NCBI RefSeq assembly: GCF_900098745.1
Contig: NZ_FQTT01000001.1
Span: 248,001-312,000, forward strand
Source of the DNA: Actinomyces glycerinitolerans
GTDB taxonomy: Bacteria > Actinomycetota > Actinomycetes > Actinomycetales > Actinomycetaceae
Direction: 5' to 3'
DNA: 64,000 nucleotides
Position numbers and translations under genes: made by a program. Below, piece by piece: positions 16,058-56,818 of this stretch (position 1 is the first letter of the stretch; every line of letters begins with the position of its first letter). Under the pieces are notes generated by a model, which saw only the letters and a list, made by a program, of their open reading frames with translations, ran no database searches and was not told where the DNA came from.

Positions 16058-18124
16058 TTACTGGTCCCAGCCACAGGCACTGATCAACCACAGTGTGTGG
16101 TCGCCGTCGGTCGCCACCCGCGTCAACGCCTCGCGCGGCAGCTCGTCGAGCTGGTTGGACCAGCGTGGCGTCTCCGCACCGCCGGGGGCGCCGCCCTCGG
16201 TGGGGTCGTCGTCGGTGTAGTAGTAGTGGGCACCCAGCCGGTCCAGGGCGGCGCACACCTGCGGATCGTCAAGGATCTCGTCCGCGTGCCGAGCCACGAT
16301 GCGGCGGTCTGCCTCGGCGTAGCGCCGCAGGGTCGGATAGACCACGTCGACTCCGGTCAGTGACCAGTAGTAGGCCGAACCATTGGTGGGCTGACCGAGC
16401 ACCACCGCGTCCTCGGGTAGCAGGTCCGCGGACGCGCGGATGAAGTCGATCTCCTCCTCGGACAGCATCATCGGCCAGCGGCTGATCGTCGGCTGGTAGG
16501 AGAAGGCGATTACGTAGTGGTGAAAGCCCGAGCGGGCGACCGCGGCGCCGCCAAGGGCGACCGTACTCACGGCGAGCAGCGCCGCCGCCGCGCGCAATCC
16601 CCAGTCGGCACGGTTCGGCTGCGGGGAGGCGAGCAGCGCCGCGCGGCGCCCCCGCGCCGAGTCCCCTAGCCCCTCCAGCGCGGTCACCGCCAGCACCAGG
16701 ACGGCGATCTCGAACAGCGGCATGATCCGGGCGCGCTGCAAATACCAGGGCGAGGCGAACACGCGCAGTGGACCATCCGTGTACACGGAGGCGACCATCA
16801 GCAGCACGGCGAGCACAGCGGTGAGGATCGCCCAGCGATGCCGGCGTCGAACCACGGAGACGACCACTCCGACGGCCGCGACCACGGTCAGGCTGGCCCC
16901 GCCCCAGCCGCCGTCGCGGATGGCCCGGGTCATGGCCGAGTCGTGGAAGGCCTCACGCAGCACCGCCATCGCATTCGCACTCGGCCGGTGGTAGGTGAAC
17001 AGCATCCGCAGCTGGTCCCAGAAGCCAATCACGCCCAGGGCCACCGCCAGCACAACCAGGCCGGCCAGGGCCATGATGATCATCCGCTGGCGGTTTCCGG
17101 TGCGCCAGCGCTGCGTGATCGCCACCAGCCCCACCACCAGCAGCGCGGGCACGCCGATAACCGCCAGGTTGAACGCGGAGGCGCCGTGCACCGCCACCAG
17201 TCCCAGGCAGGCGAAGCCGGCGGCCAGCCAACCACCGACCCGGGAGGCGGCCGCGCGGCGCTCTCCCCGGCGCGGCCGGGCCACCATCACCAGCGACACC
17301 GCCCCGGGCAGCAGGCACACCGCCCACCCGTAGGGCCACAGGGTCGACATGAGCACGAAGGGGCCGGTGGCGATGGTGGAGGCGACGATGCCGGTCAGCA
17401 GCGGCAAGGCGTCTCGGATGCGCCGCGAGGGCGCGCTGAACAGGGCAGACAGCAGGGAGGCGCAGCCCAGCGGCCAGACCACGGCGAGCCCGACCAGCAC
17501 GGTGAGGTTGGCGGACACCGCAACGGGCTCGGGCACGATCGCGGTCAGGGCGTGCCAACCGGTCGGGTAGTAGTGGACCTCCCCCCAGTACATGGGGGCG
17601 AGCGCGCCGATCGGGTAGGCATCGGCGAGGTCACGCACGTAGGCGGCCGCATTCAGGTGCCAGACGCCGTCAGAGGCCTGCATGGGCTTGTCCGCCGGCC
17701 CGATGCCGGTGATCACGGCACGCCCGGACAGGGCGGCAGCCAGTCCCAGGGCCCCGCCCAGCGGCCACCACGGCCCCGGCCCCACGGCGGGTGGCCGCAG
17801 CCGGGCGCGCAGGCGCTCCCAGCCGGAACCCGCCGCCGGCGGATGGCCGTGGCGGCGGCGCGCCCACGCGCGGGCCGCGGCGGCCCCGGCCAGGCAGGGC
17901 GCCAGCAGCGCCAGCGTACCGGCGAGGGCGGTGCCCGTACGCCAGGGCACCCCGCCCCAGCGGTACAGGACGGTCAGGGCTCCGACGGCGGCGGCGGCGA
18001 TGGCCGGGGCCGCCCCGAGGGACTGCAGGCGCGCCAGGCCGAAGGCCCGCCCCACCAGGTAGCCGGGGGCGAGCAGGAAGGCAAGAAGGAAGGCGGCTGC
18101 GGGCAGTGCCTGAAGCCAGGTCAC
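16058..18124 (-). CDS. DUF6541-type polytopic membrane protein, paralog 3
   Basis: 688 residues. GTG at 18124 overlaps the stop of the UDP-sugar dehydrogenase gene (GTGA) and opens directly into a transmembrane segment, TWLQALPAAAFLLAFLLAPG. The frame stays open far upstream only because it runs antisense to nothing else and over the dehydrogenase gene, so the extension was discarded. Family motifs are DGVWHLNAAAYVRD, YYPTGWHALTAI and C-terminal HTLWLISACGWDQ. All three paralogs keep a Cys near the C-terminus (AC or GC) and another in a VCxxL-like motif, which could form a disulfide outside the cell. Function unknown. Confidence 0.86.
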   Translation of the reverse strand: MTWLQALPAAAFLLAFLLAPGYLVGRAFGLARLQSLGAAPAIAAAAVGALTVLYRWGGVPWRTGTALAGTLALLAPCLAGAAAARAWARRRHGHPPAAGSGWERLRARLRPPAVGPGPWWPLGGALGLAAALSGRAVITGIGPADKPMQASDGVWHLNAAAYVRDLADAYPIGALAPMYWGEVHYYPTGWHALTAIVPEPVAVSANLTVLVGLAVVWPLGCASLLSALFSAPSRRIRDALPLLTGIVASTIATGPFVLMSTLWPYGWAVCLLPGAVSLVMVARPRRGERRAAASRVGGWLAAGFACLGLVAVHGASAFNLAVIGVPALLVVGLVAITQRWRTGNRQRMIIMALAGLVVLAVALGVIGFWDQLRMLFTYHRPSANAMAVLREAFHDSAMTRAIRDGGWGGASLTVVAAVGVVVSVVRRRHRWAILTAVLAVLLMVASVYTDGPLRVFASPWYLQRARIMPLFEIAVLVLAVTALEGLGDSARGRRAALLASPQPNRADWGLRAAAALLAVSTVALGGAAVARSGFHHYVIAFSYQPTISRWPMMLSEEEIDFIRASADLLPEDAVVLGQPTNGSAYYWSLTGVDVVYPTLRRYAEADRRIVARHADEILDDPQVCAALDRLGAHYYYTDDDPTEGGAPGGAETPRWSNQLDELPREALTRVATDGDHTLWLISACGWDQ

Positions 18125-45876: not shown

Positions 45877-47004
45877 TCAATTCACGGTCGCGGGCAGCAA
45901 CTCGATGGCGTCGGGATTGTCCTCCAGGTAGTCCCCCACGGCGTCGTTCTGGAAGGCCTCGAACAGCGGCGCATCCGCATCGCCGTCCAGCAGGACGATC
46001 GACTGTCCATCGGCCCTGGTGCCGGTACCGGTCGTCGGCACGGTCATGAAGTTGATGTCCGTGGAGTGGATGCCGCGCAGAGCGGTCGCCAGGGACTGCA
46101 TCTCCCCGATGGTGAAGTCGTCGTCAACCGCCAGGGTCTCGGTGAGCGTGGTGAGGAAGGAGTACAGCTTCGTCGGGCTGGTCAGGATGCCGTTATTCAG
46201 CACGGCTCCGACCATGGCCCGCATCCAGGCCTGCTGGCGGTTGACCCGGTCGAAGTCGCCGCCCGGCAGGCTCTTGCGCTCGCGCGCGTAGGCGAGGGCC
46301 TGCTCGCCGTTGAGCAACTGCGCGCCGGCGTTGAAGTCGGTGCCGGCGAGTGTCTGGTCACTCTTGAGGTTGATGGTGACCCCACCGATCGCGTCGGTGA
46401 TCTTGCTGAAGGACTCGAAATCCGCCACCACGAAGTGGTCGATGCGCACGCCCGTGAGCTGCTCGACGGTCTGGATCGTCAGGCTCGGCCCACCGTAGGA
46501 GAAGGCGGCGTTGATCTTGTTCTGCCCGTAGCCGGGAATGTCCACCCAGGAGTCGCGCGGGATGGACATGACGGAGACGTCCTCGCGGTCACCACTGATC
46601 TGCACCACCATGATCGCGTCGGTGCGCTGCGCGCCGGCCTCCCACTGGTTGGGGTCACCGGCACTGATACGCGAGTCGGAGCCGAGCACGAGGATGTTCG
46701 TCGCCGGATCCTCGGCGTCCTGCTCGGGGGCACGGTCGGCGGAGTCGATCGCGGCGAAGGGGTCGCCGATGGTCTCGATATTGCCCGACAGGTGGTTGCG
46801 CAGCCACAGTCCGCCGACCGCCGTGCCGGCCACAATCACCAGCACGACGGCGAGCACGGACACCAGTGCTATGCGCCAGCGCCTCCCACTGCGTTGCCTG
46901 CGCCGCCGCCTGCGCCCGGTTTCGGGCCGACCGACACCGCCCAGCACATCGTCGCTGAAGTTGCCGGAGGCGCCATCGCACGCGCGCTGCTCGTCATCGC
47001 TCAT
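45877..47004 (-). CDS. LCP glycan ligase 3
   Basis: 375 residues. A basic N-terminus (RRRRRRQRSGRRWR) precedes one TM segment (IALVSVLAVVLVIVAGTAVG) and an LCP domain: TNILVLGSDSRISAG, SVMSIPRDSWVDIPGYGQNK, DAIGGVTINL and QALAYARERKSLPGGDFDR with NRQQAWMRA. It keeps the Asp and Arg residues of the active site. Transcribed away from ilvE, 76 nt downstream of it; the gap contains two copies of ACCGCGCCGACGC (47021-47033 and 47039-47051). Confidence 0.94.
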   Translation of the reverse strand: MSDDEQRACDGASGNFSDDVLGGVGRPETGRRRRRRQRSGRRWRIALVSVLAVVLVIVAGTAVGGLWLRNHLSGNIETIGDPFAAIDSADRAPEQDAEDPATNILVLGSDSRISAGDPNQWEAGAQRTDAIMVVQISGDREDVSVMSIPRDSWVDIPGYGQNKINAAFSYGGPSLTIQTVEQLTGVRIDHFVVADFESFSKITDAIGGVTINLKSDQTLAGTDFNAGAQLLNGEQALAYARERKSLPGGDFDRVNRQQAWMRAMVGAVLNNGILTSPTKLYSFLTTLTETLAVDDDFTIGEMQSLATALRGIHSTDINFMTVPTTGTGTRADGQSIVLLDGDADAPLFEAFQNDAVGDYLEDNPDAIELLPATVN

Positions 47005-47080
47005 GGTTCAATCTGATCACACCGCGCCGACGCGAGAAACCGCGCCGACGCAGGGTTCCGATCACAAGCCGATTGCGACG

Positions 47081-48247
47081 TCACGCCAGGCGGTACATCC
47101 AGTTGTAGGGGTCCTCCAAGCGCCCGTACTGGATGCCGGTGAGCCGCTCGTAGATCTCGTGGGTGACCTCACTGCCCTCGATGGACACGTCGAAGCCCTC
47201 GCCCTTCAGCCGCCCCAGCGGTACGACGACGGCGGCGGTACCGCAGGCGAACACCTCGCGGACCTTGCCGGAGGAGATGTCCTCCAGCAGGCCCTCCAGT
47301 GGAATGGTCTCCTCCACGACGCGCCGGCCGGAGTCCTGCAGCAGGCGAATGATGGCGCTGCGCGTGTTGCCCTCCAGGATAGTGCCGGTCAGCCGCGGGG
47401 TGCGCACGGTGCCGTCGGCGTCCACCACCATCACGTTCATGCCGCCGAGCTCCTCGAGGTTCTTCTCGGTGACGTCGTCGAGGAAGCACACCTGGTCGCA
47501 GCCCCGAGCGTCGGCCTCCTCCTGCGGCAGCAGGGACGAGGCGTAGTTGCCGCCGGTCTTGGCGAAGCCGGTGCCGCCGCGGCCGGCCCGGTGGTAGTCC
47601 TGGGCGACCCAGATGGAGATGGGCTGCAGGCCGTGGGTGAAGTAGGCGCCCGACGGGGAGGCGATCACGTAGTAGTCGATGGTGCTGGCGGCGTGCACGC
47701 CCAGGAAAGCCTCGGATGCGAAGGCGAAGGGGCGCAGGTACAGGGACTCCCCCTCACCGGAGGGCACCCAGTCGGCGTCGGTGCGCACCAGGTCCACCAG
47801 GGAGGCGATGAAGTCGTCCTCCGGCAGTTCGGGGATGGCCATACGCCGAGCGGACAGGTTGAGCCGGGCCGCGTTGTAGCGGGGCCGGAAGGTCCAGATC
47901 GAGCCGTCGTCGTGCCGATAGGCCTTGATGCCCTCGAAGATCTCCTGCGCGTAGTGCAGGACGGCAGCGGCGGGCGACAGCGTCAGGTCGTCGAAGGGGA
48001 CGATGCCGTAGTCGCCCCAGCCGTCCGCGCGCGTCCAGCGGGCGTGAGCCATGTGGTCGGTGAACACCCGGCCGAAGTGCAGGTCCGTCAGCGCCTGGGC
48101 GCGCTCGGCGTCGGTGGCCGGGTGCGGATTGGCGGACAGGGGGAAGCGCCCGGCGAGCGCGTCGGCGGGAGGGACCGGGACGGCGGCGGCGCGGGCCAGG
48201 GGCGTGTCGAGTGAATCGGGTGTGGGTGCGACGGCTGGGGCAGACAT
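47081..48247 (-). CDS. ilvE: Branched-chain amino acid aminotransferase
   Basis: 388 residues, fold-type IV PLP enzyme that transaminates Leu, Ile and Val with 2-oxoglutarate. Conserved: HYAQEIFEGIKAYRHDDGSI, RPRYNAARLNLSARRMAIP, the cofactor Lys in GFAKTGGNYASSLLPQ, and TPRLTGTILEGNTRSAII. ATG at 48247 lies 6 nt after TACAGT, so the mRNA is probably leaderless; upstream ATG codons are outside it. An operator-like motif (48288-48300) lies 41 nt upstream and is shared with leuB and ilvB. Confidence 0.96.
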   Translation of the reverse strand: MSAPAVAPTPDSLDTPLARAAAVPVPPADALAGRFPLSANPHPATDAERAQALTDLHFGRVFTDHMAHARWTRADGWGDYGIVPFDDLTLSPAAAVLHYAQEIFEGIKAYRHDDGSIWTFRPRYNAARLNLSARRMAIPELPEDDFIASLVDLVRTDADWVPSGEGESLYLRPFAFASEAFLGVHAASTIDYYVIASPSGAYFTHGLQPISIWVAQDYHRAGRGGTGFAKTGGNYASSLLPQEEADARGCDQVCFLDDVTEKNLEELGGMNVMVVDADGTVRTPRLTGTILEGNTRSAIIRLLQDSGRRVVEETIPLEGLLEDISSGKVREVFACGTAAVVVPLGRLKGEGFDVSIEGSEVTHEIYERLTGIQYGRLEDPYNWMYRLA

Positions 48248-48253
48248 ACCGGC

Positions 48254-48259
48254 ACTGTA
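48254..48259 (-). promoter_or_regulatory. -10 element of leaderless ilvE promoter
   Basis: Minus-strand TACAGT, 6 nt, ATG at 48247. Confidence 0.6.
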
Positions 48260-48287
48260 CCGCCGCTTCACGCAGCGGACGGGCGTC

Positions 48288-48300
48288 TCTCACATACTGA
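48288..48300. promoter_or_regulatory. Candidate branched-chain operator upstream of ilvE
   Basis: TCTCACATACTGA, with a near-identical copy before ilvB and a close one before leuB. It starts 41 nt before the ilvE ATG, next to the expected -35. The pattern TCTCA-N5-TGA resembles sites of IclR-type regulators LtbR and NdgR that control leu/ilv genes in Actinobacteria. Confidence 0.5.
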
Positions 48301-48414
48301 CTCCATCCGCGCCGTCGGCCTCGCCCGGGCGCGCATGCCCTGGCGAAGCGAGCCGACGGCGTCGCCCACGTGGACCCTCCAGCGCCCGCCTCCGGGCCGG
48401 GGTCCGCGTCGGTG

Positions 48415-49479
48415 TCAGCCGCGCACGGCGGCAGCGATGGCATCCCCGATCTCGCTGGTGGTGCGCACCAGCGGAGCGCCGACAGCCTCGGCCGCGGCCC
48501 GGGCCGCCATGTCGGCGTCGACGGCGGCCTGGACGCGGGCGGCGGCGGTGCCCAGACCCAGGTGGCTGAGCATCATGGCGACGGCGGAGATGGTGGCCAC
48601 CGGGTCGGCCTTGCCCTGGCCTGCGATGTCCGGGGCGGAGCCGTGGACCGGCTCGAACATGGAGGGGAACTCGCCGACCGGGTTGAGGTTGCCCGAGGCC
48701 GACAGGCCGATGCCGCCGGTGATGGCGCCGGCCTCGTCGGTGAGGATGTCGCCGAAGAGGTTGTCGGTGACGATCACGTCGAAGCGGCCCGGGTCGGTGA
48801 CCAGGTAGATGGTGGCGGCGTCCACGTGGGAGTAGTCCACCTTCACCTCCGGGTACTCGGTGCCGACCTCCTCGACCACGCGGCGCCACAGGTGGCCGGC
48901 GTTTACGAGCACATTGTGCTTGTGCACCAGGGTGAGGTGGTGGGCGGGGCGGGCCTGGGCGGTCTCGAAGGCGTAGCGCACCACGCGCTCGACCCCGTAG
49001 GCGGTGTTGACGCTGACCTCGGTGGCGATCTCCTGCGGGGTGCCAGTGCGCACGATGCCGCCGTTGCCGCAGTACAGGCCCTCGGTGCCCTCGCGCACCA
49101 CCACGAAGTCGATGTCCCCGGGGTCGGCCAGGGGCGTGGCCACGCCCGGGTAGTACTTGGAGGGGCGCAGGTTGACGTAGTGGTCCAGGGCGAAGCGCAG
49201 GCGCAGCAGCAGGCCGCGTTCGAGCACGCCGGAGGGGACCGACGGGTCGCCGACGGCGCCCAGCAGGATGGCGTCGTGGGTCTTGATGTCCTCCAGCTCG
49301 GCGTCCGTGATGGTCTCGCCGGTGCGGTGCCAGCGCTCGGCGCCCAGGTCGAAGTCGGTGGTCTCCAGGGTGACGCCGCTGCCTTCAAGGGCCGCCTCAA
49401 GTACCTTCAGGCCCTCGGGCACCACCTCCTTGCCGATGCCGTCGCCGGGGATCACTGCAAGCTTGATGGTCTGCGTCAT
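48415..49479 (-). CDS. leuB: 3-isopropylmalate dehydrogenase
   Basis: 354 residues. Oxidative decarboxylation of 3-isopropylmalate in leucine synthesis (and 3-methylmalate if the citramalate route operates). Motifs: [69 protein letters not shown] and [23 protein letters not shown] 49479 follows TAGGGT by 6 nt; the operator-like TCTCAGATACCG lies 42 nt upstream. leuC and leuD are not in the window. Confidence 0.96.
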
Positions 49480-49485
49480 GCGGCG

Positions 49486-49491
49486 ACCCTA
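49486..49491 (-). promoter_or_regulatory. -10 element of leaderless leuB promoter
   Basis: Minus-strand TAGGGT, 6 nt, ATG at 49479. Confidence 0.6.
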
Positions 49492-49520
49492 AGCGGATCG
49501 GCCGTCGCTCCGGGCGGGCA

Positions 49521-49532
49521 TCTCAGATACCG
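49521..49532. promoter_or_regulatory. Candidate branched-chain operator upstream of leuB
   Basis: TCTCAGATACCG, the same motif and nearly the same distance (42 nt) from the start codon as at ilvE (41 nt). Confidence 0.45.
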
Positions 49533-49642
49533 GCGGGCGGTTGGCGGACCCGGGACCCGCCAGCAGGCACTGCGCCGCTCCTGCCCACCACCTGCCGACT
49601 TCCCGGCACCGCCCAGACATTGCGCGCCGTCACCACGGCGTA

Positions 49643-49731
49643 GTTGCACGACCCCGGGCGATGTTCCACGACCTTGGTGCGCGTTCCACGACCACGGGGT
49701 AGTCGTGGAACGCGCACCAAGGTCGTGCAAC
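49643..49731. repeat. Dyad-symmetric array: GTTCCACGACC repeats, 20-bp period, 30-bp hairpin
   Basis: GTTGCACGACC (49643-49653), GTTCCACGACC (49663-49673) and GTTCCACGACC (49683-49693) repeat every 20 bp. The last two and the spacer between them pair with 49702-49731, giving a 30-bp stem with one mismatch and a 9-nt loop. It lies between the TOPRIM-like gene and leuB on the minus strand and could end transcription of the ATPase cassette before leuB. Confidence 0.85.
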
Positions 49732-49767
49732 GCGAAGACGCAGCCACCGCGAACCGGGGCACCCGCG

Positions 49768-50388
49768 TTACTCATAGCCCAGGTGCTGCCGATTCCTGAC
49801 CAGGGCGGACTCGAGCTCCTTCTCTAGCCTTTTCCAGGCCTCCAGATGCTTGACGTCGCCGTCAATCCGGATCTGTTCGACGAGTTGCGAGCGCTTTCGA
49901 GCAAACGCGGTCGCCTTCATGAAGCTAGAACGATCCCGGTTGAGGTACTCCTCCAGCGTTCGCTTGGGGTCGGCCAGCCCCTCGATCACTTTACGACTGA
50001 GCCCCTTCCCCGCCGCCCAGGCTCGGAAGGTCTCCTTCTCCTTCTCGTTAGACCACAGGTCCGCCAGCACCCAGGCCTCGGTCATCGTCACCGGGATCAC
50101 CGGCACGACGCGGTCGTCGCCCGGCTTGCGGCACTCCTTGATCCGAGCCTCTATGCCGGCGTTGTCGGCGTCGCGGTGCACGAAGATCAGGTCATACGGC
50201 TCTTCTGCCAGCGCCTTGATCTTCTCCTCAACGTTGTTCGGACGCTTCCCATTCCACTCGTGCGGTTCGGGTTCGAGGTTCACGTCGGCACCGGGACGCA
50301 TGCTCATGAGCAGCCGCTCGAGTACCTTAGCGAGCCTGTTGTCGGAGGTTCCCTCACCGATGAAGGCGCACCGCCAGTACTCACTCAT
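49768..50388 (-). CDS. TOPRIM-like DUF4276 protein, putative nuclease partner of AAA ATPase
   Basis: 206 residues. Predicted catalytic acids of a TOPRIM-like fold are visible: Glu12 in IGEGTSDNRL, Asp73 and Asp75 in FVHRDADNAG, and Glu104 in VTMTEAWVLADLW. ATG at 50388 has GGAGGA 6 nt upstream and overlaps the ATPase stop by 8 nt, so the two proteins are translationally coupled. By analogy with RloB, AbiLii and Gabija-type TOPRIM nucleases it could be the effector of an ATPase-controlled defence system. Nuclease activity is inferred, not shown. The remaining helical, Lys-rich C-terminus (RKRSQLVEQIRIDGDVKHLE) may bind nucleic acid. Confidence 0.78.
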   Translation of the reverse strand: MSEYWRCAFIGEGTSDNRLAKVLERLLMSMRPGADVNLEPEPHEWNGKRPNNVEEKIKALAEEPYDLIFVHRDADNAGIEARIKECRKPGDDRVVPVIPVTMTEAWVLADLWSNEKEKETFRAWAAGKGLSRKVIEGLADPKRTLEEYLNRDRSSFMKATAFARKRSQLVEQIRIDGDVKHLEAWKRLEKELESALVRNRQHLGYE

Positions 50389-51763
50389 CGGTCTCCTCCG
50401 GCTCCGAGGGGTTGTACAGGAATGCGAAGAGCTTAGAGCGCGACACCGGCGCCGAACTCCGCGGGCGGTCATCCGAGCGCTCCCACTGCTCCGACCGCCA
50501 AGTGCCCGGCAACGGATTGAAGGTCACGGACTCCGTGATGCGGCCGTCGGCGTCCCGGCGTCGCCATGGCACCGCGCACAGCACGTCGTCGGCGTGGTCT
50601 TGCATGGCGTCCTGGACCAAGTAGGGCGAGTGCGTGTTGACGAGGACCTGCCCGGCGTGGCCGTCACGGGCTTCGGTCATGGAGCGCAGCAGTTCAAGTA
50701 TGTCAGCGATCTTGGCGGGGTGGAGGCCGTTCTCCGGCTCCTCGATTGCGACGAGGCTCGGGCCGGAATCCAGTACCGCGAGAGCGGCGAGTGCGATGAG
50801 ACGCAGGGTGCCGTCGGAGAGGCTGCGCGCGGACAGCTCGGGCCCGTCCCCGATCCTGGCGCGCAGCTCCAGGTAGTCGCCGTTGGGGACCACTCGCAGC
50901 GTGCGCATCTCAAGGAACGGGGCCAGGGCATCGATGATGTCCTGGTAGACCCGGCTGTCGTCCCGAGCGGCACGTCGGTAGAGAGTCGAGGCTAAGTGCT
51001 CTCCCGACGCCGTGATGTCCGCCTCCTCGTCACGGTCATCCGCGCGCCGCAGTGCGGAGGGCTCAAGGGACAGGAAGCGCCACGAGCGCATCTGCGCAGC
51101 GACGGCGGCGACGGCTCGTGAGGAGCCCGCACCGGCCGGATGGCCGAGCAGGGTACTTACACTGTCTTCGACCGAAAGCAGCGGCAGAGCTTGCTGGCCA
51201 TATCCTGGTGGAGGCTCAACATCATCGCGGCCAACAAAGACAACGTCAAAAGAGTCGTCATTTGACGCATCATCGCTATCCAATGACTCTTCGCTCGTCC
51301 AGATGTGCGTCCCGCGAGTGTCGGAGACGAGGTGCTCCCGAACCAACGTGAGGTCGGTGTCGCCATCGCGTTCATTGACGCGGAACTCGACCTCGTAGCG
51401 AAACCTCTCCGTACGCGTGGGGGCCGCTGGCAGCCCCGGCCGAGGATCGCGCAGCGCCATCTGCCAGGGCGGCGTCACGTCGACGTCGGCCGTGACCTCC
51501 GCGGCGAGCCGGACCGTGTGTCCGTCGGCGAGCGACTCGGGCGGGAAGAGCACGCGCAGCGGCGTCTTCTGGCCGCCATCGGAACGCAGTCGCCGGAATG
51601 CCTCGCGGTACGGGTACTGCACGAGGAGGCTGAGCAGCTCGATCGCGTCGAACAGGTTCGACTTCCCAACGCCATTCGGCCCGGCGATCACCGTCATCGG
51701 GCCGAAGTCAACGGCGACGTCCCGGAGGTTCTTGAACCCCGAGATCTCGATCCTGGTCAGCAC
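50381..51763 (-). CDS. AAA family ATPase (RecF/OLD-like), paralog 1
   Basis: 460 residues with an ABC/SMC-type head: Walker A in VIAGPNGVGKSNLFDAIELL (about residues 28-35), an ABC-signature-like LSARSLSDGTLRLIALAAL, Walker B LVAIEEPENGLHPAK and the switch His in VNTHSPYLVQDAM. The central region lacks a long coiled coil, so it is an AAA_21/AAA_15-like ATPase and not an SMC. No TOPRIM domain is fused; the partner is the next gene. GTG at 51763 was chosen because the paralog also begins LTR and AAGGAG lies upstream; GTG 51793 is possible. Its DNA is less GC-rich than the paralog's. Confidence 0.85.
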   Translation of the reverse strand: MLTRIEISGFKNLRDVAVDFGPMTVIAGPNGVGKSNLFDAIELLSLLVQYPYREAFRRLRSDGGQKTPLRVLFPPESLADGHTVRLAAEVTADVDVTPPWQMALRDPRPGLPAAPTRTERFRYEVEFRVNERDGDTDLTLVREHLVSDTRGTHIWTSEESLDSDDASNDDSFDVVFVGRDDVEPPPGYGQQALPLLSVEDSVSTLLGHPAGAGSSRAVAAVAAQMRSWRFLSLEPSALRRADDRDEEADITASGEHLASTLYRRAARDDSRVYQDIIDALAPFLEMRTLRVVPNGDYLELRARIGDGPELSARSLSDGTLRLIALAALAVLDSGPSLVAIEEPENGLHPAKIADILELLRSMTEARDGHAGQVLVNTHSPYLVQDAMQDHADDVLCAVPWRRRDADGRITESVTFNPLPGTWRSEQWERSDDRPRSSAPVSRSKLFAFLYNPSEPEETDE

Positions 51764-51861
51764 GGCCTCGACTCCTTCCCGCAGCGTTTGCACAAGTCCC
51801 CGACCAGGCTAACAGCCGTGCCGCTCCAACACTGGCAAGAGCCGGGCACCTCCGCGCCGGC

Positions 51862-53220
51862 TCAGTCCGCGGCCGCTGCGGAGCCGCCCAGATAGGCCTG
51901 CACGGTGCTGCGGGGAACCGGCCGCATGCCCTGGCCGCCCCAGCCCCGGGCACGCCAGGTGCCGGCCAGCGGGTGGAAGTCCACCGCCTCGCCGCGCGTG
52001 CCGTCCCCACTGCGCGTCTTGCGCCCGACGGCGCACAGCACTTCGGCGTCCTCGGCGCACTGGAACAGGTTGGGCGAGTGCGTGTTGACGACGACCTGTC
52101 GCAGGTGCTGGGAGGCCGGCGCCGACAGGCCGTGCAGCAGCCGGTACAGCTCCGGGAGCTTGGCCGGGTGAATCCCGTTCTCGGGCTCCTCCAGGCACAG
52201 CATCCCCGAGTAGTCCTCCGCCACCCCGATCGCGGCCAGCGTGAGCAGGCGCAGCGTCCCGTCCGACAGCGCCCGCGCCGGCAGCTCCGGGGCGTCCCCG
52301 ACCTGGGCCCGCAACTCCAGGGCCTGACGCACCGGGTCCTCCGTGATCGTCAGACTGCGCACGTCGACCAACGGGGCGACGGCGTCGCACACGCGGTGCA
52401 GCACCGCGCCGTCACGCCCGGCGGCCAGGTTCTGCCGGTAAAGCGCCGCCGGCACATGCGCCCCGGAAGCGGAAATGGTGCTCCGCTCCATTAAATCATC
52501 GGGGGCACGCATGGCGCAGGGCTCCAGGGCCAAGAATCTCCACGACGACATTTCTGTGCGCGCCGCCAGAATAGTCGGGTATTCGGCACTGGCGACGGCG
52601 GAAAGCACGGTGCGCTGGGCACCATCGGCGAGCACCCGCCGCGGCCTGCCGTTGGCTTCCCGGTGAACAATCACCGCACCTTGACCGTGAGAAGCCTGAT
52701 AGTCGAGGAAACGGCCCTCCGAATCTGAGGGCCCGCAGGCGATGAACCGCCGACACGCCTCCGCCTCCGGGAAACGCAGGCCGCCGGCGGCATCGTCCAG
52801 TGCGCGCAGTTGCTCCCGCGCCAACCGCAGGCGCAGACCTCCCGGGACGGTCGGATCCTGCTGCACGGCAATCTCCACCTCGTAGCGCACGTAACCGCAC
52901 GACGGCGCCACCGTCTGCCCGAATTCATCCTCCGCACGCGGTGGCAGGATCATCTCCGCGGCGAATCCCAAGTTGGCAGCGCCGTCCAGCACGCCGGCGG
53001 ACAGCAGGGAGGCGACGTCGAGATGCTGCTGAGCGGTCGGGCGCACCTGGAGGCAGGCGTCGTGGAATGAGTTGGAGCTGAGCAGGGATAGGAACTCGAT
53101 GGCATTGAACAGGTTGGATTTTCCCACCGCGTTGGGGCCGGCGATGCAGGTGAATGGCCCGAAGTCCACCCTCACGTCAACGAGGTTCTTGAATCCCGTT
53201 ACCTCGAAACGAGTAAGCAC
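51862..53220 (-). CDS. AAA family ATPase (RecF/OLD-like), paralog 2
   Basis: 452 residues, clearly homologous along its length to the next gene: LTRFEVTGFKNLVDVRVDFG, Walker A CIAGPNAVGKSNLFNAIEFL, SSWRFLALEPCAMRAPDD, LPARALSDGTLRLLTLAAIG, Walker B LCLEEPENGIHPAKLPEL and VVNTHSPNLFQC. It has no nuclease gene of its own; its stop is 98 bp before paralog 1. GTG start at 53220 with GGGAGG/GAGGGG upstream. A TAAACT hexamer (53259-53264, minus strand) may be the cassette's -10. It could form a heteromer with paralog 1 or be a duplicated sensor. Confidence 0.85.
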   Translation of the reverse strand: MLTRFEVTGFKNLVDVRVDFGPFTCIAGPNAVGKSNLFNAIEFLSLLSSNSFHDACLQVRPTAQQHLDVASLLSAGVLDGAANLGFAAEMILPPRAEDEFGQTVAPSCGYVRYEVEIAVQQDPTVPGGLRLRLAREQLRALDDAAGGLRFPEAEACRRFIACGPSDSEGRFLDYQASHGQGAVIVHREANGRPRRVLADGAQRTVLSAVASAEYPTILAARTEMSSWRFLALEPCAMRAPDDLMERSTISASGAHVPAALYRQNLAAGRDGAVLHRVCDAVAPLVDVRSLTITEDPVRQALELRAQVGDAPELPARALSDGTLRLLTLAAIGVAEDYSGMLCLEEPENGIHPAKLPELYRLLHGLSAPASQHLRQVVVNTHSPNLFQCAEDAEVLCAVGRKTRSGDGTRGEAVDFHPLAGTWRARGWGGQGMRPVPRSTVQAYLGGSAAAAD

Positions 53221-53354
53221 GCCTCTGCCCCCCTCGCCTCCCGTCGATACGCCTCTCAGTTTATCCTCAGGTAAGTACCAATACGCGAGAATGCGCCAGC
53301 GTGCTCAAAACGCGACATTGACCGCGTTCTGTAACGATTAAATCCGGAAAATGC

Positions 53355-53388
53355 GTGGGGGCGACGGACCGAAGCCCGCCACCCCCAC
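53355..53388 (-). terminator. ilvC terminator with UUCG tetraloop
   Basis: In the minus-strand RNA 15 consecutive pairs form (three G-U wobbles, which show as mismatches on the other strand), closed by C-UUCG-G, an especially stable loop, and followed by ATTTTCC. It lies about 90 nt after the ilvC stop at 53479 and so separates the ilv operon from the ATPase cassette. The wobble pattern shows it is meant to act in this direction only. Confidence 0.8.
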
Positions 53389-53478
53389 CGGGATGTATTA
53401 GCACCGCAAAATCCGTTATAAACGGTCGAGCACTATGCCCGCACATTCTCTTCCGGAAGGATGCGGCCTACCACCGGG

Positions 53479-54519
<1,041 letters not shown>

Positions 54520-55032
54520 TCACTTCTCCTTGAGTTGATCGGTGATGGAACGGGGACCGCGCGAAATCGCGACCGCACCGGATTGGACGATCTCCTTGAC
54601 CCCGTGGGGGGCCAGGGCGTCCAGAAGGGCCTTGACCTTGGACTCCGAGCCTACGGACTCGATGACGACCGAGGTCGGGGACACGTCCACGACGTGCGCC
54701 CGGAACAGGTCGACGATCTGGAGTACGGCGGTCCGGTTGGAGTCATCGGCACGCACCTTAATGAGGTACAGCTCGCGGCCCACCGAGGTGTCCGGATCCA
54801 GTTCGACGATCTTGATGACGTTGACCAGCTTGTTCAGCTGCTTGGTCACCTGCTCCATGGCCGGGCCCTCGGCGTCGGCGATCACCGTGATGCGCGAGAT
54901 GTCCTCGTGCTCGGTGGGGCCGACCGCCAGGGAATGGATGTTGAAGCCGCGGCGGGTGAACAGCGCGGACACGCGCGTGAGCACGCCGGGCTTGTTCTCC
55001 ACCAGAACCGAAAGCGTGTGCTTCTCGCTCAT
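54520..55032 (-). CDS. ilvN: Acetolactate synthase regulatory subunit
   Basis: 170 residues. N-terminal ACT domain HTLSVLVENKPGVLTRVSAL with the valine-binding loop, and a C-terminal ALS_ss domain (ELYLIKVRADDSNRTAVLQI). It binds IlvB and confers valine feedback. Four nucleotides separate it from ilvB, and AGGAGG-like sequence at the ilvB end serves as its ribosome site. Confidence 0.96.
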   Translation of the reverse strand: MSEKHTLSVLVENKPGVLTRVSALFTRRGFNIHSLAVGPTEHEDISRITVIADAEGPAMEQVTKQLNKLVNVIKIVELDPDTSVGRELYLIKVRADDSNRTAVLQIVDLFRAHVVDVSPTSVVIESVGSESKVKALLDALAPHGVKEIVQSGAVAISRGPRSITDQLKEK

Positions 55033-55036
55033 GGTC

Positions 55037-56818
55037 TCACTCCTCCTCCCACACGGGGCTCATCCCGCGCGCGTGCTGGATTTCGTCGTTGGACACGCCC
55101 GCCGCGACCATGGGCCACACCTGGGCGTCGGCTGACACGATGAAGTCGATGACGACCGGGCGGTCGTTGATGGCGTTGGCCTGGGCGATCACGTCATCGA
55201 CGTCCTCGAGCCGTTCACAGCGCAGACCGACGGCGCCGTAGGCCTCGGCGAGCTTGGCGAAGTCGGGGATGTGCTCGGTGCCGGCGCCGGTGTGCAGGTC
55301 GGTATTGGAGTAGCGCTCCCCGTAGAACAGGTTCTGCCACTGGCGCACCATGCCCAGAGACGAGTTGTTGATGATCGCGACCTTGATGGGGATGTTGTTG
55401 AGCGTGCAGGTGGCCAGTTCCTGGTTGGTCATCTGGAAGCAGCCGTCGCCGTCGATCAACCAGACCGGGCGGTCCGGGCAGGCCTCCTTCGCGCCCATGG
55501 CGGCGGGCACGCCGTAGCCCATGGTGCCGGCGCCGGCGGAGGTGAGCCAGGAGCGGGGCTGGTTGAAGTGCAGATAGTGGGCCGCCCACATCTGGTGCTG
55601 GCCGACGCCGGTCACCCAGATGGTGTCCTTGTCTGCCGCCTTGTCCAGGTGGGTGATGACCTCCTGGGGCTGGAGCAGGCCGTCGTCGGTGTCGGTCCAG
55701 TCGGTGGGGTAGGTGACGCGGATGTGCGCGACCTCGGTGAGCCACTGGTCGATCTCGGCGCGCGGCTCGACGGCGAACTGCTCGCGGCAGGCCGCGGTCA
55801 GGGCCGGCACCACGTCCTTCAGGTCGCCCACGATGGGGATGTCGGCGGTGCGGATCTTGGAGATCTCGGCGGGGTCGATGTCCACGTGGATGACGGCGGC
55901 GTGGCGGGCGAAGGTGTCCGGCTTGCCGGTGACGCGGTCGTCGAAGCGGGCCCCCAGCGTGATGATCAGGTCGGCGCGCTGCAGGGCGCCGACGGCGGCG
56001 ACGGTGCCGTGCATACCGGGCATGCCCAGGTTAAGCGGGTGGTCGGTGGGCAGCACGTCCAGGGCGGTCAGCGTCGTCGTGAAGGGGGCGCCGACCAGCT
56101 GGACCAGCTCGTTCAGCTGCTCGACCGGCACGCCGGCGCGGCTCAGGCCGCCGCCGAGGTAGAAGACGGGGCGCTCGGCGGAGGCGATGGCCTCGGCGGC
56201 CTGGGCGATGCGCCGCTGGTTGGGCTTGCCGGGCAGGCTGTAACCGGGCAGGTCCATGCGCGGCGGCCAGTGGAACTCGGTCTCGCCGACCTGGGCGTCC
56301 TTGGTGAAGTCGATGAGCACCGGGCCGGGGCGGCCGGTGGAGGCCAGGTGGAAGGCCTCGGCGACACGGCTGGGGACCTCGTCGGGGGAGGTGACCAGGA
56401 AGGAGTGCTTGACGAACGGCATGGTGGAGCCGACGATGTCCGCCTCCTGGAATGCGTCGGTACCGATCGCGGTGGAGCCGACCTGGCCGGTGATGGCGAC
56501 CATGGGCACGGAGTCCATGTGGGCGTCGCCGATGGCGGTGACCAGGTTGGTGGCGCCGGGGCCGGAGGTGGCCACGCATACGCCGACCCTCCCGGTGGCC
56601 ATGGCGTAGCCCTCGGCGGCGTGACCGGCGCCCTGCTCGTGTCGTACCAGCACGTGGCGGATCTTCTCGCTGGCCAGCAGCGGATCATAGAAGGGCAGGA
56701 TCGCGCCGCCGGGCATGCCGAAGATGTCGGTAACGCCGATCTCCTCCAGGGAACGCACGAGCGCCTGGGCACCTGTCATCTGTTGGTTCTGGTCCGGGGA
56801 ACCACTGTCACGAACCAT
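55037..56818 (-). CDS. ilvB: Acetolactate synthase catalytic subunit
   Basis: 593 residues, thiamine-diphosphate enzyme. The cofactor-activating Glu is in [14 protein letters not shown]; the ThDP/Mg motif is [19 protein letters not shown] followed by [14 protein letters not shown]. First gene of ilvBNC. ATG 56818 has AGGAGG 7 nt upstream and a leader of at least 100 nt that contains the operator-like TCTCACATATTGG (56937-56949) and a GTCGGCC/GGCCGAC palindrome (56867-56882). No Ile/Val/Leu-rich leader peptide was found. Confidence 0.97.

Follow-up and report, generated by a model that had tools for sequence, protein, structure and literature searches.

The analysed window, 64,000 nucleotides (nt) of the 3.7-Mb genome of Actinomyces glycerinitolerans, harbored three genes between ilvC and leuB, here called ATP1, ATP2 and TOP. 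They are best read as two separately evolving modules, ATP1 and the pair ATP2-TOP, stacked at an integration site of Actinomyces (probability about 0.75). The first-pass annotation had regarded them as an undescribed three-gene defence system. Its trio of minus-strand open reading frames (ORFs) was confirmed at 49768-53220, between flanking genes on the same strand which, from their translations, we take to be ilvC (53479-54510) and leuB (48415-49479). ATP1 (51862..53220) encodes an ABC ATPase of RecF/SMC type (452 amino acids, aa) assigned to the HEC-01A family, an orphan in that its own adjacent TOPRIM partner is absent. ATP2 (50381..51763) encodes a second HEC-01A-family ATPase (460 aa), the partner of TOP (49768..50388), whose product (206 aa) is HEC-01B/DUF4276-like, carries a TOPRIM-type acid pattern (E12, D73-x-D75, E104) and is presumed to be the effector nuclease. 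The ATP2 stop and the TOP start overlapped by 8 nt (50381-50388), as first described, and 98 nt separated ATP1 from ATP2. According to the alignment with relatives, ATP2 probably starts at the GTG at 51763 (VLTRIEISGFKNL) and not at 51793, the start first given.

Both ATPases were, by sequence, of the RecF/SMC/OLD type, each matching Pfam AAA_21 and AAA_15; they were paralogues of 43% identity (about 40-43%), in agreement with the first-pass annotation. The AlphaFold2 model of ATP1 (predicted local distance difference test, pLDDT, 90.3) displayed an SMC/Rad50/PtuA-like fold. PADLOC placed HEC-01A (PDLC04184) at the top of the families listed for ATP1 (268.8 bits) and ATP2 (228.9 bits), and HEC-01B (PDLC04210) at the top for TOP (60.1 bits). 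Because ATP2-TOP matches HEC-01A/HEC-01B, this pair is catalogued and not undescribed; what stood of that claim is the presence, by sequence, of a defence-type ATPase and a TOPRIM-like protein. In sharing these families, with TOP directly after ATP2, ATP2-TOP is assigned to the catalogued candidate two-gene system HEC-01. The window differs from it by the extra HEC-01A ATPase upstream and by its situation in an interval between metabolic genes. A HEC-01B partner lay directly downstream of ATP2, whereas the gene following ATP1 was ATP2; on these matches ATP1 is classed as a HEC-01A-lineage orphan rather than a HEC-01 system. The acronym HEC denotes Hma-embedded candidates. Antiviral activity was reported for HEC-06 (PMC12988326), the ATPase-TOPRIM fusion HEC-04 was active against T4 and T5 (PMC12111858) and HEC-01 appears as a listed system (PMC12724379); the passages of this literature that cover HEC-06 and HEC-04 report no antiviral activity of HEC-01.

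The pair, and not the trio, was the unit encountered in public genomes. A scan of genome contigs with ATP1 yielded at least 565 confirmed relatives, of which the best 80, belonging to several phyla, were kept. A match to the TOP profile (E<=1e-4) was located at or directly after the ATPase in 79 of these 80 loci, some of which stop near the ATPase at a contig end; L180 was the exception, and in L138 and L150 the TOP match lay within the same ORF as the ATPase. Among these best 80 loci the two-gene ATPase-TOP arrangement is thus, by profile matches, the unit. The co-occurrence of both ATPases with TOP, which the first-pass annotation had proposed to look for, was restricted to one of the 80: two distinct ATPases in a row were found only in L112 of Actinomyces ruminis, which corresponds to the locus of G145, while doubled ATPase matches in L113 and L150 were pieces of one ATPase. 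Five of 396 Actinomycetota genomes (four candidates per genome scored) displayed an ATPase match at E<=1e-40, and only that of the window had two. Family-wide, ATP1 and TOP each matched three of 121 genomes.

ATP1 and ATP2-TOP also differed in their histories. Synonymous divergence (dS) from the window was higher in G149 than in G145 for ATP1 (0.95 vs 0.35, computed on the first 325 codons), LCP (0.58 vs 0.32) and ilvB (0.30 vs 0.19), with bootstrap values of 1.0, 1.0 and 0.9995 for G149 being the farther genome. The order was opposite for ATP2 (0.268 vs 0.444) and TOP (0.282 vs 0.411), with corresponding values of 0.0005 and 0.022. The divergence of ATP1 tracked that of host genes, and the divergence of ATP2 and TOP did not. 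In the protein tree, the group containing ATP1 and ATP2 otherwise consisted of paired Actinomyces ATPases, and the two formed separate branches in it (approximate likelihood ratio support, SH-aLRT, 100 each); ATP1 is a separate HEC-01A lineage and a module distinct from ATP2-TOP. A recent tandem duplication giving rise to ATP1 and ATP2 was ruled out by these separate branches. The tree comprised 91 of 96 candidate rows: 75 came from the 80 loci and 16 were proteins of the genus. Of the excluded rows, L112, L113 and L115 repeated genomes that were already included (L113 also being broken), and L119 and L144 were discarded for their length. The profiles excluded the ATPase of G114, which is open only in two frames, and the TOP of G145 was not among the extracted TOPs.

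Within the genus, the ATP2 query (E<=1e-20) matched 16 of 49 genomes, that of the window included, and the site was variable. A universal and invariant locus, which according to the first-pass annotation would have spoken against a defence cassette, was thus not observed. ilvC was found in 48 of the 49 genomes searched (47 of 48 within the genus) and 51 regions were mapped. Fifteen of the 16 ATPase-carrying genomes had the ATPase beside ilvC or leuB, G139 being the only one with a pair elsewhere. Stacks of ATP1 and ATP2-TOP lay beside ilvC/leuB in four genomes (G000, G141, G145 and G149); three of the seven ATP1 genomes (G142, G144 and G155) carried ATP1 without ATP2-TOP. ATPase-TOP pairs occupied the site in G122, G123, G124, G125, G161 and G062 (in the last beside leuB only). 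In G147 the ATPase at the site was split by an insertion, and G128 retained an N-terminal remnant there. Twelve genomes had an effectively empty ilvC-leuB interval of 129-295 nt, and others had other genes in it. Ranked by ilvC identity to the window, the top six genomes (95-99%) were exactly the six other ATP1 carriers. In G155, the closest relative (ATP1 95%), the ATP1 stop abutted the leuB leader that follows TOP in the window, and G144 was similar; from these junction sequences, the ATP2-TOP module absent in both would extend approximately over 49536..51850. In G142, leuB was not found within the stretch fetched. The three genes did not persist as a unit either: only the window's stack had all three open, while ATP1 was frame-shifted in G149 (its ATP2-TOP being open), ATP2 broken in G145 and TOP broken in G141, and the breaks in G145 and G149 may include sequencing error.

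Some further features of the site were observed. The insert in the HEC-01A ATPase of G147 (L044, ilvC end +277 to +3681) contained an opposite-strand ORF of 399 aa that looked transposase-like by eye, and the TOP behind it was open. In G141 (L034, ilvC end +3150 to +3732) a TOP remnant subsisted in two pieces, and ATP2 read past its usual stop into it. An ilvC-leuB interval of ~2.08 kb (2072-2096 nt) was found in 12 genomes of the genus; in two such regions (L090 and L091) it held genes that by eye resembled transporter and TetR genes.

ATP1 was maintained under purifying selection, constrained though not exceptionally. Its ratio of nonsynonymous to synonymous divergence (dN/dS) was 0.155-0.264 over 15 pairs, and 0.224-0.235 in the three pairs where both genomes lacked ATP2-TOP; two comparisons of paired ATPases in the genus gave 0.293 and 0.298, and many paired ATPases outside the genus displayed core values of 0.03-0.16. 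ATP1 was open in six of seven genomes. It is not degenerate: the elements that we take to be Walker A, the LSDGT signature, Walker B and the H-loop all agreed with the family. ATP1 is most likely still able to bind and hydrolyse ATP. Among 97 columns conserved at >=90% across a set of 82 further ATPases, 75 of which belonged to other genera, ATP1 (six copies) retained 81 and ATP2 (three copies) 74. At position 39, N was present in all six open copies of ATP1, while 99% of the family displayed D. We considered, and rejected, the idea that the C-terminal tail, where TOP might dock, is relaxed specifically in the orphan. The tail first looked relaxed in five ATP1 comparisons and constrained in three comparisons among the genus's TOP-paired ATPases, but a wider control revealed no difference (p = 0.54): three independent ATP1 pairs gave ratios of 0.70, 3.57 and 1.58, and 17 pairs of paired ATPases had a median of 1.75 (range 0.34-7.25; 21 pairs entered, four being dropped as the H-loop motif was not found).

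Whether orphan ATP1 has a partner elsewhere in its genome was decided with the TOP profile, as Pfam DUF4276 is nearly blind to this type of TOP (those of G145 and G149 were missed). At E<=1e-3 the profile matched in 14 of the 17 genomes searched and gave no match in G142, G144 and G155. Pfam DUF4276 matched one other protein each in G142 and G144, beside a different ATPase; in G155 neither the profile nor DUF4276 matched, an absence that is provisional in this draft of ~90 contigs. A different ATPase and DUF4276 pair (396 aa and 241 aa, DUF4276 131 bits) was also noticed in the window's own genome, on contig C3 at ~16,100-17,990 (L012 6135-7984), and DUF4276 matches with an adjacent ATPase match were seen in G142, G141, G149 and G144.

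A Pfam DUF4276 match was present in TOP, but its score of 18.3 bits (E 0.0067) was below the cut-off of 30.2. Alignment A1, composed of the window's TOP and 51 TOPs from the best 80 loci chosen by length, was used to place it: 41 of the 52 members matched DUF4276 at E<=0.01, and all 52, the window's included, matched the HEC-01B model PDLC04210. TOPRIM nucleases display an acid after strand 1, a D-x-acid after strand 3 and a later Glu. TOP agreed with this pattern, and the acids reported earlier were retained as acids at all four positions in 52 of 52 members: position 12 was E in 32 and D in 20, D73 was invariant, position 75 was D in 32 and E in 20, and E104 was invariant. In the AlphaFold2 model (pLDDT 92.8), strands 4-10, 67-71 and 94-97 lay ahead of the acids. 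Structure comparison gave a weak fold match, with TOPRIM matches within background. The TOPRIM fold foreseen in the first-pass annotation is only weakly supported: topology and acids accord with it, but the structural match is weak. The TOP profile had a sole match among sequences of solved structures, a ribosomal protein (E 0.31) taken as chance, and DUF4276 was not found in papers by the literature search.

Among the remaining features, a 14-nt element upstream of ATP1, CTGAGGATAAACTG (53257..53270, minus strand), was invariant in 7/7 ATP1 genomes in the alignment of seven upstream regions; it is promoter-like (TAAACT) and may serve as the promoter of ATP1. The ATP1-ATP2 spacer contained GTTAGCCTGGTC (51802..51813, minus strand), identical in three of four aligned stack spacers and with two differences in G149, possibly a separate promoter for ATP2-TOP. 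Both elements were absent from the list of the sigma-70 scan. The ilvC terminator of the first-pass annotation was upheld as a probable one: a GC-rich hairpin 3' of ilvC (about 53355..53388, minus strand) recurred in the seven ATP1-carrying genomes, though it was missing from the output of the T-run terminator scan. The large hairpin array that had been taken as the other bound of a cassette (49637..49731, no strand assigned) was a palindromic repeat with 33-nt arms, one of a family dispersed over the genome and incidental to the three genes; a 27-mer of it had 43 matches in the genome (<=3 mismatches) and its reversed control none, which ruled it out as a boundary. The repeat was made of ~20-nt units and looked like a repetitive extragenic palindrome (REP). 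A lower G+C of the first ATPase, also claimed, was wrong for ATP1 (0.692, as against 0.687 for both the window and ilvC); ATP2, TOP and leuB displayed 0.667, 0.620 and 0.711. Rfam gave zero matches to RNA families over 47000-55500.

By analogy with related systems, the second module could work as follows. ATP2 would assemble on TOP and hold it inactive until an infection cue acted on ATP2; TOP, released or activated in this way, would then use its acidic metal site to cleave RNA or DNA and thereby stop the infected cell. In PARIS, a hexamer of AriA sequesters AriB until a phage protein triggers its release, upon which AriB cuts tRNA (PMC12409363); no AriB model was among the eight PADLOC families of TOP at E<=1, and its fold match was weak. 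The pairs AbiL and AAA-TOPRIM_OLD share the plan of an ATPase and a TOPRIM-type toxin in two genes, and there the AAA protein neutralises the toxin in toxin-antitoxin tests (PMC10440598). The window's ATPases scored 58.9 and 67.5 bits to AbiLi, with neither an AbiLii nor a RloB model among the Pfam and PADLOC matches of TOP at E<=1. OLD, Gabija and HEC-04 likewise combine an ABC ATPase with TOPRIM, both domains being in one protein (PMC10568477). NCBIfam MAD3, of the MADS component Mad3, matched both ATPases (120 and 132.9 bits), far under its equivalog cut-off of 420.

In the two-module reading, ATP1 is an ATPase of the HEC-01A lineage that would have lost, or never brought, a TOPRIM partner. 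It might be a stand-alone HEC-01-type ATPase without the HEC-01 nuclease, for instance a solitary antitoxin against TOPRIM proteins shuttling through the site or a sensor recruited to another effector, a suggestion that we offer tentatively. The antitoxin version taken by itself, with ATP1 neutralising incoming HEC-01 TOPRIM proteins or restraining the adjacent TOP, is unlikely. It would accord with the neutralisation of TOPRIM toxins by AAA partners in related pairs (PMC10440598), with the conservation of ATP1 where TOP of this type was not found and with the gain and loss of HEC-01 pairs at the same site of the genus; but the 40-43% identity between ATP1 and ATP2 makes cross-recognition of TOP uncertain, and the C-terminal region was free to vary in some ATP1 pairs, though not in ATP1 specifically. 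It is rather doubtful that ATP1 represents the decaying remnant of an earlier HEC-01 pair. The missing partner, the frame-shift in G149, the change of D39 to N in all six open copies and a dN/dS above many core values outside the genus would fit decay, which is opposed by the open frame in six of seven genomes, by ratios under both comparisons of paired ATPases in the genus and by the invariance of CTGAGGATAAACTG.

The stacking of two modules was also weighed against a true three-gene system, in which ATP1 and ATP2 would form a hetero-oligomeric sensor controlling TOP. Such a system could explain the identical order and strand of the genes in four genomes, and ATP2, which retained fewer conserved columns than ATP1, could need the latter. 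It is nevertheless very improbable in the light of ATP1 occurring alone in 3/7 genomes, the open ATP2-TOP beside a frame-shifted ATP1 in G149, the opposite orders of dS and the paired ATPases elsewhere that do without a second one (79/80 best loci). A role in DNA repair or stress instead of phage defence is also improbable. An archaeal OLD-family ATPase does act in the cell cycle, apparently not in defence (PMC12796447), and ATP1 and TOP seem rarely to be carried by mobile elements, since TOP had zero matches in the phage collection and ATP1 matched one record of the plasmid collection at E<=1e-30. Among PHROGs, TOP matched none, and the ATPases matched families of ATPases of which almost none had a named function. 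Against such a role speak the patchy presence at a variable site and the membership of a catalogued defence candidate (PADLOC HEC-01).

With the two-module reading, a candidate three-gene system is removed from the list and a testable picture takes its place. A single site in Actinomyces hosts HEC-01 pairs, orphan ATPases, remnants and empty sites together, and orphan ATP1 offers a natural case in which to ask whether the ATPase partner of an ATPase-TOPRIM system may act alone, for example as immunity against the nuclease partner.

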